64,000 bases of DNA from Candidatus Thiothrix sulfatifontis (GTDB lineage: Bacteria; Pseudomonadota; Gammaproteobacteria; Thiotrichales; Thiotrichaceae): positions 992,001-1,056,000 of the forward strand of contig CP094685.1 in assembly GCA_022828425.1 (NCBI GenBank), in the 5' to 3' direction. The translations under genes were made by a program, and so were the position numbers. Shown here piece by piece: positions 22,190-25,873 of the stretch (position 1 is the first letter of the stretch; every line of letters begins with the position of its first letter). The notes beneath the pieces were generated by a model. The model worked only from the letters and a program-made list of their open reading frames with translations, did no database searches and was not told the origin of the DNA.

Positions 22190-23017
22190 ATGACAATAAA
22201 CTGGCGATTTTCGGGAGTCTTATTGGCTTCCATGACTATGGGGTTGATGGCTTGCAGCGGCAATGGTGCTAAAAAAGAAGCGGTCAGTGCGCTACCGCTT
22301 CCAGCCGGGTCGAATGCTGGAGATCGTGCGCCGTGTGGCAATGATCCCGCTTACACAATCGAAGGCAAAACATACCAAGTGCTTGATTCGGCGGCTGGTT
22401 ATGCCGAGAAAGGCACGGCAGCGTGGTACGGCGCAGAATACCAAGGCACTGCGACCGCTGGTTGTGAAGTGTTTGACATGTATAGCTATTCTGCGGCACA
22501 CCGCACGTTGCCTTTGCCCAGTTTTGCTAAAGTGACTAATCAACAAAATGGTCAGCACATTATTGTGCGTATTAATGATCGTGGCCCGTTTGAGAGCGGC
22601 GATTTAATTCAGCTATCGTTTGCTGCCGCAAATGCGTTGGGGATTAAGGCGAAAAGCGGTGCGCCGGTTGAGGTGGCTGCTATTCCGCCTGAACAATTAC
22701 CGCCGGAACTTCAGGCCGCTACCGCTAAGCCTAACGCGCTGCCGCCACTGGCTAAAACAGCGGAGCCGGTGGATAAGTCCAAGCCTTATTATGTGATCGC
22801 CGGTACGTGGCCGGATCGCAATACTTCGCTGGATATGTTTGTGCGTCTGACTTCGGTTGGGCTGGCGAAAACAGAAATGGCGACCGCGCAACAAGAAGGT
22901 CGCGAAATGTATCAGGTTCGGGTTGGACCTTTATACAACCAAGATCAAATTGATAACGTGAAAGATATACTGCAAAGTAATGGCTTGGCGAATTTCAAGG
23001 TGGTTGCTGGTAAGTAA
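22190..23017 (+). CDS. rlpA: Septal ring lytic transglycosylase RlpA (lipoprotein, SPOR domain)
   Basis: The start at ATG 22190 (MTINWRFSGVLLASMTMGLMAC) gives a lipoprotein signal; the frame is open further upstream to 22061, but that part overlaps mltB and the terminator. The 275-residue product has a double-psi beta-barrel (EKGTAAWYGAEYQG, ASGE-like region replaced by ATAGCEVFDMYSYSAAH, and VRINDRGPF, where the conserved Asp of the RlpA site lies) and a C-terminal SPOR domain (YYVIAGTWPDRNT... VRVGPLYNQDQIDNVKD), which binds denuded glycans at the septum. The altered ASGE motif (TATAGCEVFD) could reduce or shift activity. Confidence 0.9.
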   Translation: MTINWRFSGVLLASMTMGLMACSGNGAKKEAVSALPLPAGSNAGDRAPCGNDPAYTIEGKTYQVLDSAAGYAEKGTAAWYGAEYQGTATAGCEVFDMYSYSAAHRTLPLPSFAKVTNQQNGQHIIVRINDRGPFESGDLIQLSFAAANALGIKAKSGAPVEVAAIPPEQLPPELQAATAKPNALPPLAKTAEPVDKSKPYYVIAGTWPDRNTSLDMFVRLTSVGLAKTEMATAQQEGREMYQVRVGPLYNQDQIDNVKDILQSNGLANFKVVAGK

Positions 23018-23036
23018 TTCAGTAAAAGGATTGTTA

Positions 23037-24278
23037 ATGTTTATAAGGATTCTTAAACCGTTATTGTTAGCAGGGTTGCTGGCTGGCGGCATCGTGATGG
23101 CTGCCCCTGAGTCGGCTGCGCCGAGTACGGGCGAACCGGCTCCTAAAGATATGTCGACTGCGCCGTATAATGATCCGAATATTCCGCCGGAAATTATTGC
23201 GATGGCACCCGGTGTCCCCGAAATTGAGGCGAAGAGCTATTTGCTGGTCGATTTCCAAAGCGGTGAAGAGCTGGCGGGCATTAACCCCGGAATGCGCGTG
23301 GAGCCAGCCAGTATCACCAAGCTGATGACCGCTTATCTGATCTATCAGGATTTGGGCAAGGGCAAGGTGAAGCTGGAAGATGAAGTGCTCATCAGCGAAA
23401 AAGCGTGGAAAATGGAAGGCTCGCGCATGTTTGTTGAGCTGGGAAAAAAAGTACCGTTTGAGAAATTGCTTAAAGGCATGATTATTCAATCCGGCAACGA
23501 TGCGGCGATGGCGCTAGCGGAGCACGTGGCGGGCAGTGAAGAAGTGTTTGTACAGCGCATGAATCAAACCGCGCTGGAGTTGGGGATGCAAGATACCCGT
23601 TACATGAATGTTACTGGCTGGCCTGCCAACGATCACTACACCACGGCGCGTGACATTGTGCGGTTAGTCGAAGCGTTGGTGAATGATTTCCCAGAGTATT
23701 ACAAGCTGTATGCGCAGAAAGAATTCAGCTACAACAATATTAAGCAGCAAAACCGCAATCGCTTATTGTGGCGCGATGCCACGGTGGATGGCTTGAAAAC
23801 CGGGCATACCGAGTCGGCGGGTTATTGTTTGGTGGCTTCCGCTAAGCGTGACACCATGCGCTTGATTTCAGTGGTATTGGGTACCAAAAGTGAAGAAGCC
23901 CGTGCTAACGTGAGTCAGCAATTGTTGGAATACGGTTTCCGCACGTTTGAAACGCACAAGTTGTACGGTGCGGGCGCGGTGCTCGATAACGTGCGCGTCT
24001 GGAAGGGTGAAACCACGCAAGTGCCTGCCGGGGTGGTGGATGATTTGTTTGTGAGCATCGTGAAAGGCCGCTATGACCAATTGAAAGGCGGCATACAGCT
24101 TGATAAAGGCATTGACGCCCCCATTAAACGCGGTGACGCACTGGGCAAAGTGATTATTACGGATCAGGAATTAGGCAAAGTCGTCAAGGAAACCCCCTTA
24201 TTGGCGTTGGAAGATGTCAGTGAGGGCGGCTGGTGGCGGCAGGTGATGGATGGTATCCAGAAGTTGTTCGCGGATTGA
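23037..24278 (+). CDS. dacA: D-alanyl-D-alanine carboxypeptidase (PBP5/6 type)
   Basis: Removes the terminal D-Ala from pentapeptide side chains in the periplasm. The start is ATG 23037 (MFIRILKPLLLAGLLAGG), with AAGGA 7 bases before it; a signal peptide follows. The three active-site motifs are S92-I-T-K, S152-G-N and K254-T-G. After the catalytic domain comes the beta-rich PBP5 C-domain and an amphipathic anchor (GGWWRQVMDGIQKLFAD). The product is 413 residues, as usual for PBP5/6. It is directly downstream of rlpA. Confidence 0.95.
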   Translation: MFIRILKPLLLAGLLAGGIVMAAPESAAPSTGEPAPKDMSTAPYNDPNIPPEIIAMAPGVPEIEAKSYLLVDFQSGEELAGINPGMRVEPASITKLMTAYLIYQDLGKGKVKLEDEVLISEKAWKMEGSRMFVELGKKVPFEKLLKGMIIQSGNDAAMALAEHVAGSEEVFVQRMNQTALELGMQDTRYMNVTGWPANDHYTTARDIVRLVEALVNDFPEYYKLYAQKEFSYNNIKQQNRNRLLWRDATVDGLKTGHTESAGYCLVASAKRDTMRLISVVLGTKSEEARANVSQQLLEYGFRTFETHKLYGAGAVLDNVRVWKGETTQVPAGVVDDLFVSIVKGRYDQLKGGIQLDKGIDAPIKRGDALGKVIITDQELGKVVKETPLLALEDVSEGGWWRQVMDGIQKLFAD

Positions 24279-24300
24279 TAGCGCAAGCGTGAGGTGAGCG

Positions 24301-24582
24301 GTGGAACGTTTCGGACAGCAGGAAGAGTTAATACTGGAATTTCCCTGTGATTTCCCCATCAAAATAGTGGGGCGGGCAGACGCGGAATTTCACGTGCGCA
24401 TTTGTGAAATCGTATGCCGCCATGACAACGATTTTGACCCCGAAGCGCATGTACAGCGCCGTGACAGTTCGGCGGGTAAATACCACAGCTTGACCGTGAA
24501 GTTGCGGGCAACCAGTAAGCAGCAAATTGATGCGGTGTATCAGGATTTAAAAGCCTGTGAGTTGGTGTTGTGGGCGTTGTAA
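24301..24582 (+). CDS. ybeD: UPF0250/DUF493 protein YbeD
   Basis: A 93-residue ACT-like protein ([51 protein letters not shown]). It starts at GTG behind GAGGTGAG. YbeD sits between dacA and lipB in most Gammaproteobacteria and is proposed to be a small regulator of lipoate metabolism, without proof. Its end overlaps the GTG start of lipB by 13 bp. Confidence 0.9.
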
Positions 24583-25232
24583 GCGCCGCTGCTTTAACGA
24601 CAACCTTATCCATTCGTCAACTAGGGCTGCTGGAGTATGTTGCGGTTTGGCAGCAAATGCAGGCATTTACCCAGCAGCGTGTAGCGGATACGCCCGATGA
24701 AATTTGGTTGGTACAGCATCCTCCTGTTTTCACTTTGGGGCGTAATGGCAAAATGGCGCATGTGTTAGCGCCCGGTGATATTCCCGTGATTCCAATTGAT
24801 CGCGGTGGGCAGGTGACGTATCACGGCCCTGGGCAATTGGTGGCTTATCTGTTGTTGGATATTCGCCGTAAAGCGTTGGGGGTGCGCGAGTTGGTGACAG
24901 CGATTGAGCAAGCGGTAATCGACTTGCTGGCGCATTATGGCATTACCGCTTTAGGGGATAGAGAGGCGCCGGGGGTTTATGTGGCGGGGCGCAAAATTGC
25001 GGCGTTAGGTCTGCGCATTTCCAAAGGCTGCACTTACCACGGTTTGAGTTTGAATGTAGCGATGGATTTAGAACCCTTTTAGCGCATTAACCCGTGTGGT
25101 TACGCGGGCTTGCAGGTGACGCAGTGCGAAGATTTAGGCGTACAGCAACCTTTAGCAGACTTGGCTCACGCATTGTGCGATTGTCTCGCGCAACGCCTGC
25201 ATTATTCCAACGTCATTTGGGCGCAAACTTAA
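24570..25232 (+). pseudogene. lipB: Octanoyltransferase lipB with in-frame amber codon
   Basis: LipB moves octanoate from acyl-carrier protein to target lipoyl domains. The frame shows normal LipB features: [20 protein letters not shown], then [19 protein letters not shown] with the catalytic Lys, then [15 protein letters not shown]. At 25080-25082 a TAG replaces the residue usually Ser or Leu in this position. The same frame then continues perfectly with RINPCGYAGLQV (catalytic Cys), and ends at TAA 25230-25232 after SNVIWAQT, overlapping the coq7 stop. So the lesion is a single nonsense codon, not a frameshift, and it removes the catalytic Cys. It may be a true pseudogene, a suppressed amber or a base error. 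Confidence 0.85.
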
Positions 25233-25873
25233 ACGTAGTAGGCGCTTTTTGTCATTGTTTTGGACAGCAGCGGCATCAGTAATTTGCGTGCGAGAAATGG
25301 CAATTTAGCACCACCGGCTTGCATCGCCACTTCAGCATGGTGTTGTTCGTCGGCTTTCATTTTTTGCAGAATAGCCATGTCGGACAAGGCGTGTGGAGGG
25401 AGGCGCTTAATGTGGTCTTCCAAATGTTTAACAACTTGATCTTCGGTTTCTTTGACAAAACCCAAACTCCATTTGTCACCAATTTTGCCTGCAACGGCGC
25501 CGATGGTGAATGAACCCCAGTAGAACAGCGGGTTCAGCAGGCTTTTGCGTCCGCCCAGCTCGTGCAGGCGTTTTTCTGTCCAGTTCAGGTGATCATTTTC
25601 TTCCATGGCAGCGCGTTCCATCTGCTCACGGATGTCTGCGCGGTTAGCCGTTAATGCCTGCCCCCGGTATAAACCTTGGGCAGACACTTCACCGGCATGG
25701 TTAATGCGCATCAGTCTGGCGATCAGTGCGTGCTCGTCTTCATTGAGCGGAGCCGTTTCAGGCATACCCGTCGCTGGATTGGGGCGTTCTGTTGTCGGTG
25801 CGGTGGCGTGAACCACACGCAACGACTGGTCGACTTCGGCTAGAATATTATCCAACAGACTGAGTTTGCGCAT
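25229..25873 (-). CDS. coq7: Demethoxyubiquinone hydroxylase Coq7
   Basis: Di-iron hydroxylase of ubiquinone synthesis, converting 2-polyprenyl-3-methyl-6-methoxy-1,4-benzoquinone. The 214-residue protein carries ferritin-like ligand motifs: RINHAGEVSAQGLYRGQ (Glu), EENDHLNWTEKR (ExxH) and ADEQHHAEVAMQAGG (ExxH type). The length is typical of bacterial Coq7. It indicates aerobic ubiquinone-based respiration. It is transcribed towards lipB with overlapping stops, and lies 15 bp downstream of the dsbA-like gene. Confidence 0.93.
   Translation of the reverse strand: MRKLSLLDNILAEVDQSLRVVHATAPTTERPNPATGMPETAPLNEDEHALIARLMRINHAGEVSAQGLYRGQALTANRADIREQMERAAMEENDHLNWTEKRLHELGGRKSLLNPLFYWGSFTIGAVAGKIGDKWSLGFVKETEDQVVKHLEDHIKRLPPHALSDMAILQKMKADEQHHAEVAMQAGGAKLPFLARKLLMPLLSKTMTKSAYYV

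Follow-up and report, generated by a model that had tools for sequence, protein, structure and literature searches.

The locus lies in a window of 64,000 nucleotides from the Candidatus Thiothrix sulfatifontis genome, where lipB follows genes for a D-Ala-D-Ala carboxypeptidase and a DUF493 protein and meets the convergent coq7. Read directly from the sequence, the lipB reading frame occupies 24570-25232 on the forward strand and is interrupted at codon 171 by a TAG at 25080-25082; it is open both 5' and 3' of this codon and ends with a TAA at 25230-25232. There were no Rfam matches in the window. The features are, in window positions:

22980-24278, forward strand: D-Ala-D-Ala carboxypeptidase (dacA-like) gene, upstream of lipB
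24301-24582, forward strand: DUF493 (ybeD-like) gene, overlapping the start of lipB
24570-25082, forward strand: 5' part of lipB, 170 codons plus the TAG, with the Lys of GRKIAALG and without the presumed catalytic Cys
24993-24995, forward strand: Lys of the GRKIAALG motif, lipB codon 142
25083-25232, forward strand: 3' part of lipB, in frame and open to the TAA; codons 172-190 equal to those of the sister genome G013, codons 191-220 strongly diverged
25095-25097, forward strand: Cys of NPCGYAG, lipB codon 176 (TGT), aligning with the PCG of structures 1w66 and 2qht
25139-25140 (approximate), no strand: edge of a low-divergence tract (about 23.0-25.14 kb) common to G013 and G014
25229-25873, reverse strand: coq7, its 3' end overlapping the lipB stop

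When searched with the LipB model NF010922, the 170-residue piece scored 265.3 bits and the 49-residue remainder 32.9 bits, and because the two match consecutive stretches of the profile (4-163 and 165-208), both parts belong to one gene. This confirms a first-pass annotation of the window, which had described the frame as intact on both sides of the TAG. Read through, the frame reached 314 bits with NF010922 (cut-off 235) and 192.6 bits with TIGR00214 (cut-off 83.55); judged by these profiles it is a LipB-type octanoyltransferase, predicted to transfer octanoate from ACP to lipoyl domains. We take the Lys of GRKIAALG to have a catalytic role, and likewise the Cys of NPCG, presumably the acyl carrier. 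With the standard code the product ends at codon 171 and so lacks this Cys, as the first-pass annotation had stated of the truncated 170-residue product, and there is no in-frame ATG, GTG or TTG for a restart between the TAG and the Cys codon. The same annotation had put the TAG directly before the Cys; it is indeed upstream, but five codons away. Compared with known LipB octanoyltransferases (NF010922, TIGR00214; structures 1w66, 2qhs and 2qht), the read-through frame has the same whole-length match, the same Lys and Cys motifs and the same DUF493-lipB gene order, whereas the TAG at this distance from the Cys codon was seen in no other copy examined. A study cited in PMC10332631 names LipB in its title as acting via an acyl-enzyme.

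lipB was found in all 16 Thiothrix genomes searched, with 17 copies in all. Codon 171 is CAG in 13 copies, CTG in two, CAA in one and TAG only in the window, that is, Gln (n = 14) or Leu (n = 2) in the 16 copies of the 15 sister genomes. The closest relatives by lipB match are G014 (93% identity; CAA) and G013 (92%; CAG); CTG occurs in G002 and G009, and CAG in the remaining 12 sister copies. Since G013 carries CAG in identical surroundings (the eight neighbouring codons printed are the same as in the window), the simplest reading of these alignments is an ancestral Gln codon changed by one C-to-T transition (CAG to TAG). An origin from a Ser or Leu codon, as first proposed, does not agree with the Gln of the nearest relatives, Leu being confined to G002 and G009. 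Two other genus matches contain stops: the TGA inside the G011 match is that gene's own end, and the two stops in the second G001 copy fall within a replaced 3' end. The G001 genome has two copies of dacA-DUF493-lipB of at least 2.1 kb (L015 and L018; G001:C1, at about 514 and 528 kb), which are 98% identical and about 13.5 kb apart, and the second lipB copy has lost its 3' end.

Across the order, TIGR00214 matched in 57 of 63 genomes (43 of the 46 more complete ones). All 58 matches span the model positions around codon 171, and a stop lies inside only the one in the window. Nor was a stop at codon 171 present in any of 80 further lipB loci, which, being the best 80 of at least 588, do not form a random sample (one, L019, is probably the same gene as that of G002 in the genus set). 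Of these loci 79 were read by motif, and the 80th (L021) has Lys; the 79 carry R (n = 17), Q (n = 16), L (n = 11), H (n = 11), S (n = 8) and seven other kinds of residue (n = 16). With 12 different residues in this alignment, site 171 is evidently very tolerant. Among plasmids, 11 records were matched, all distantly (about 65-73% identity), and no paper on an amber codon in lipB was found among the literature matches listed.

To place the stop in time, we compared the region with G013. The lipB genes differ by few amino acids in the first 170 codons and by many in the last 30. Synonymous divergence (dS) is 0.35-0.56 in the three genes before dacA and then falls to 0.135 (dacA), 0.20 (DUF493 gene) and 0.21 (lipB codons 1-170). 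It is 0 for codons 172-190 and 1.70 for codons 191-220 (dN 0.25; the dS is rough, resting on 19 synonymous sites), while coq7 has 0.66 and the gene after it 0.65. The number of differences per 100 bases rises abruptly at about 25140. Because dS jumps at this point and stays high through coq7, the divergence of the 3' end reflects a likely recombination edge, and decay of the 3' end after the stop is out; there is no excess of amino-acid over synonymous change after the stop of the kind expected from pseudogene decay. The tract of about 23.0-25.14 kb was thus most likely exchanged with the G013/G014 lineage, with its edge within lipB. Relative to G013 and G014, dS is about 0.14-0.21 in the dacA-DUF493-lipB tract (window 23000-25140) and 0.35-1.2 in the surrounding genes. 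The TAG falls within the tract, 57 bases upstream of the edge, and neither G013 nor G014 has it although the tract is common to them, so the stop is younger than the common ancestor of the tract and most likely arose after the exchange. The 57 bases from the TAG to the edge are unchanged from G013; at the upstream rate (28 in 510) about three changes would be expected, too few for proof of constraint.

We tentatively read the TAG as a recent null or leaky lipB allele in the sequenced population, with a probability of roughly 0.45. The reading that the base is wrong or unrepresentative is nearly tied with it, the two standing about even: a consensus error, or a minority allele of a mixed population, would leave the living cells with a Gln codon and an ordinary LipB. 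The source of the sequence gives this reading weight. The genome is a single contig of 3,692,320 bases, and PMC9319827 describes it as the circular chromosome, of the same length, of the metagenome-assembled 'Candidatus Thiothrix sulfatifontis' KT (GCA_022828425.1), obtained from nanopore reads by Flye assembly, hand closure and two rounds of Pilon correction with Illumina reads. The main text of PMC9319827 uses the word 'coverage' once, in a reference title, and gives no read coverage under that word. In addition, the other 57 lipB matches of the order are all uninterrupted, and the lipoyl system is otherwise whole with no detected back-up, so that selection against a null allele is expected.

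A gene-by-gene comparison was used to judge the quality of the bases. ORFs of at least 100 aa in 800 kb of G013 were searched against 800 kb of the genome under study (G000), keeping matches of at least 80% identity. A total of 214 of the 724 ORFs were matched, of which 201 were intact, four partial (single pieces each), seven with a stop and two split. The seven with a stop are lipB, one at 958621 in a 5' extension, one at 1549487 opposite what we take to be a nifW-like gene, and four with stops at codons 2-37, after which a Met follows and the match runs on; these four are taken as start extensions. Inspection by eye traced one of the two split rows to a 7-base deletion in a presumably alkene-reductase-like gene, the other to a 5' extension in front of an intact, presumably pdxH-like gene. 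The deletion (near 939760 of G000, L155) breaks a gene that is whole in G013. Leaving the four partial matches aside, lipB is the sole clear mid-gene point nonsense in the 214 compared genes, and these genes contain no clear single-base frameshift. Single-base indels are the usual nanopore error, and the lack of clear ones here suggests that the assembly is not badly polished and that correction worked. In the converse search 191 of 211 were intact, with 12 rows containing stops, three split and five partial. An earlier comparison (400 kb each, ORFs of at least 80 aa, at least 70% identity) had matched 211 of 391 G013 ORFs, seven with stops and four split; two of these rows were short or poor, one a split ORF of 88 aa and the other an ORF of 80 aa that contains two stops (1045569-1045578). 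Extension to 800 kb added little because gene order is not kept. The hexamers TTTCAG, TTCAGC, TCAGCG and CAGCGC are no rarer in the 800 kb of G000 than in the 800 kb of G013, so nothing suggests that C is systematically miscalled as T in the lipB context. Both results speak against a wrong base, while an isolated substitution error, or a population that is mixed at the TAG, is still compatible with these assembly checks.

Recoding of the amber codon, or a new decoding system, is not supported by the genome sequence. The locus shares with amber recoding (suppressor tRNA or reassigned UAG) an in-frame TAG with conserved flanks, but otherwise it differs. The suppressor tRNA suggested as a check by the first-pass annotation did not appear: none of the 41 tRNA matches (37 distinct sequences) in the genome has a CUA anticodon, in a scan with 163 first-look candidates of which 13 were left unscored. 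For KT, PMC9319827 gives 41 tRNA genes in its text and 47 in its table. The tRNA-Cys (L119:1498-1571) has four pairs rather than five in its anticodon stem by a simple count, the only tRNA of the set to do so. The RF1 gene (prfA) is whole, with 361 codons and no stop; TAG is an ordinary terminator, ending 76 of 635 ORFs of at least 150 aa in 800 kb of the genome; and no other clear mid-gene TAG was found in the 214 compared genes of the 800 kb (about 22% of the genome), lipB alone being affected.

It is also unlikely that the TAG is a stable allele, read through often enough by misreading Tyr, Trp, Leu or Gln tRNAs to give a working LipB. Site 171 would accept many residues, and the base after the TAG is C; as reported in PMC5289835, tRNA-Gln misreads UAG in E. 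coli, and C after the stop raises read-through in yeast. However, C is also the commonest base after ordinary TAG ends (27 of 77, in a second count of open frames), and while Table 1 of PMC5289835 lists seven near-cognate anticodons for UAG, the genome has only three of them (Leu-CAA, Trp-CCA and Tyr-GTA). Gln-CUG is absent, the tRNA-Gln having the UUG anticodon only, and neither the whole RF1 nor the missing CUA tRNA favours efficient read-through. RNA structure around the stop is nothing unusual (z +1.3), a search for inverted repeats was negative, and nothing points to programmed read-through. That a free-living bacterium makes its sole octanoyltransferase only via amber read-through, with total protein lipoylation set by the efficiency of termination, we regard as quite improbable.

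The partners of LipB are whole in this genome, namely LipA (331 aa from its ATG), GcvH (128 aa), AceE (885 aa; pyruvate dehydrogenase E1) and two E2 proteins with ETDK and ESDK, which we take to be lipoyl-lysine motifs. The second E2 gene (ETDK type; L240:1936-5459) comes after that of polynucleotide phosphorylase and has no E1 gene directly before it. As for the second lipB or lplA that had been proposed as a check, none was detected with three families: PF21948 matched this lipB alone, PF03099 gave only a weak match to lipB and one further frame, which PF21948 does not match and which is a biotin ligase by its TIGR00121 score (174.2 bits; cut-off 83.1), and PF16917 had zero matches in the genome. 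We therefore found no candidate for another LipB/LplA-type attachment enzyme by these profiles. A second, weak LipA match was considered as LipS and rejected, being a biotin synthase. According to PMC10332631, Proteobacteria have LipB, never LipM. Since the partners are whole and no second enzyme was found, the lipB product should matter and its loss should be costly. The whole lipoyl carriers and LipA beside an interrupted lipB would also fit another, undetected enzyme that attaches octanoate or lipoate and makes lipB dispensable, which the profile results and the identity of the biotin synthase leave as the least probable explanation.

Part of a lipB loss could be bypassed by a putative pyruvate synthase-like operon (PorC-PorA-PorB, at about 543.7-546.9 kb), which would provide acetyl-CoA without lipoate. 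PorC, PorA and PorB score under the best equivalog cut-offs, and PorC passes TIGR02175, a subfamily model. In the genus, PF01855 is over the cut-off in 13 of 16 genomes and matches at any level in 14, with none in G001 and G013 (some of the matching frames are long and could encode other enzymes). All 13 genomes also carry lipB. Pyruvate synthase as a special adaptation to the loss of lipB is thus not supported, as it is widespread in the genus.

For the reading of a recent null or leaky allele, then, the following course is proposed. A single recent C-to-T transition in the Gln171 codon would have put an amber stop into lipB, the only octanoyltransferase gene found. The 170-residue product would lack the catalytic Cys, and the allele would be null, or at best leaky through background misreading of UAG. 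The base would be real, and the cells would survive on residual read-through and/or on acetyl-CoA from the pyruvate synthase-like enzyme during autotrophic growth. Codons 172-190 unchanged from G013, the apparent tolerance of site 171, the isolation of the stop and its probable age, younger than the ancestor of the tract, are consistent with such an allele; against it stand the metagenome assembly as the source and the whole lipoylation partners, given which losing the sole LipB would be expected to do harm. The first-pass annotation had offered read-through, another ligase or a wrong base. These alternatives were rightly chosen, but they omit a true null allele, which an autotroph equipped with a pyruvate synthase-like operon as well might survive.

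The locus resembles other cases in assembled genomes in which a point nonsense has made a housekeeping gene a pseudogene or null allele, with a single transition that is recent, isolated and free of signs of decay. It differs in that no back-up for lipB was detected, so that a true null would be expected to carry a cost. Should the base prove wrong, the case warns against taking a lone stop in a metagenome assembly for biology. Should it be real, a natural population would be living with a lipB that is broken or barely leaky, although the rest of its genome still seems to require the gene, and one could ask what minimum of LipB is enough, or whether a ferredoxin-linked pyruvate enzyme can substitute.
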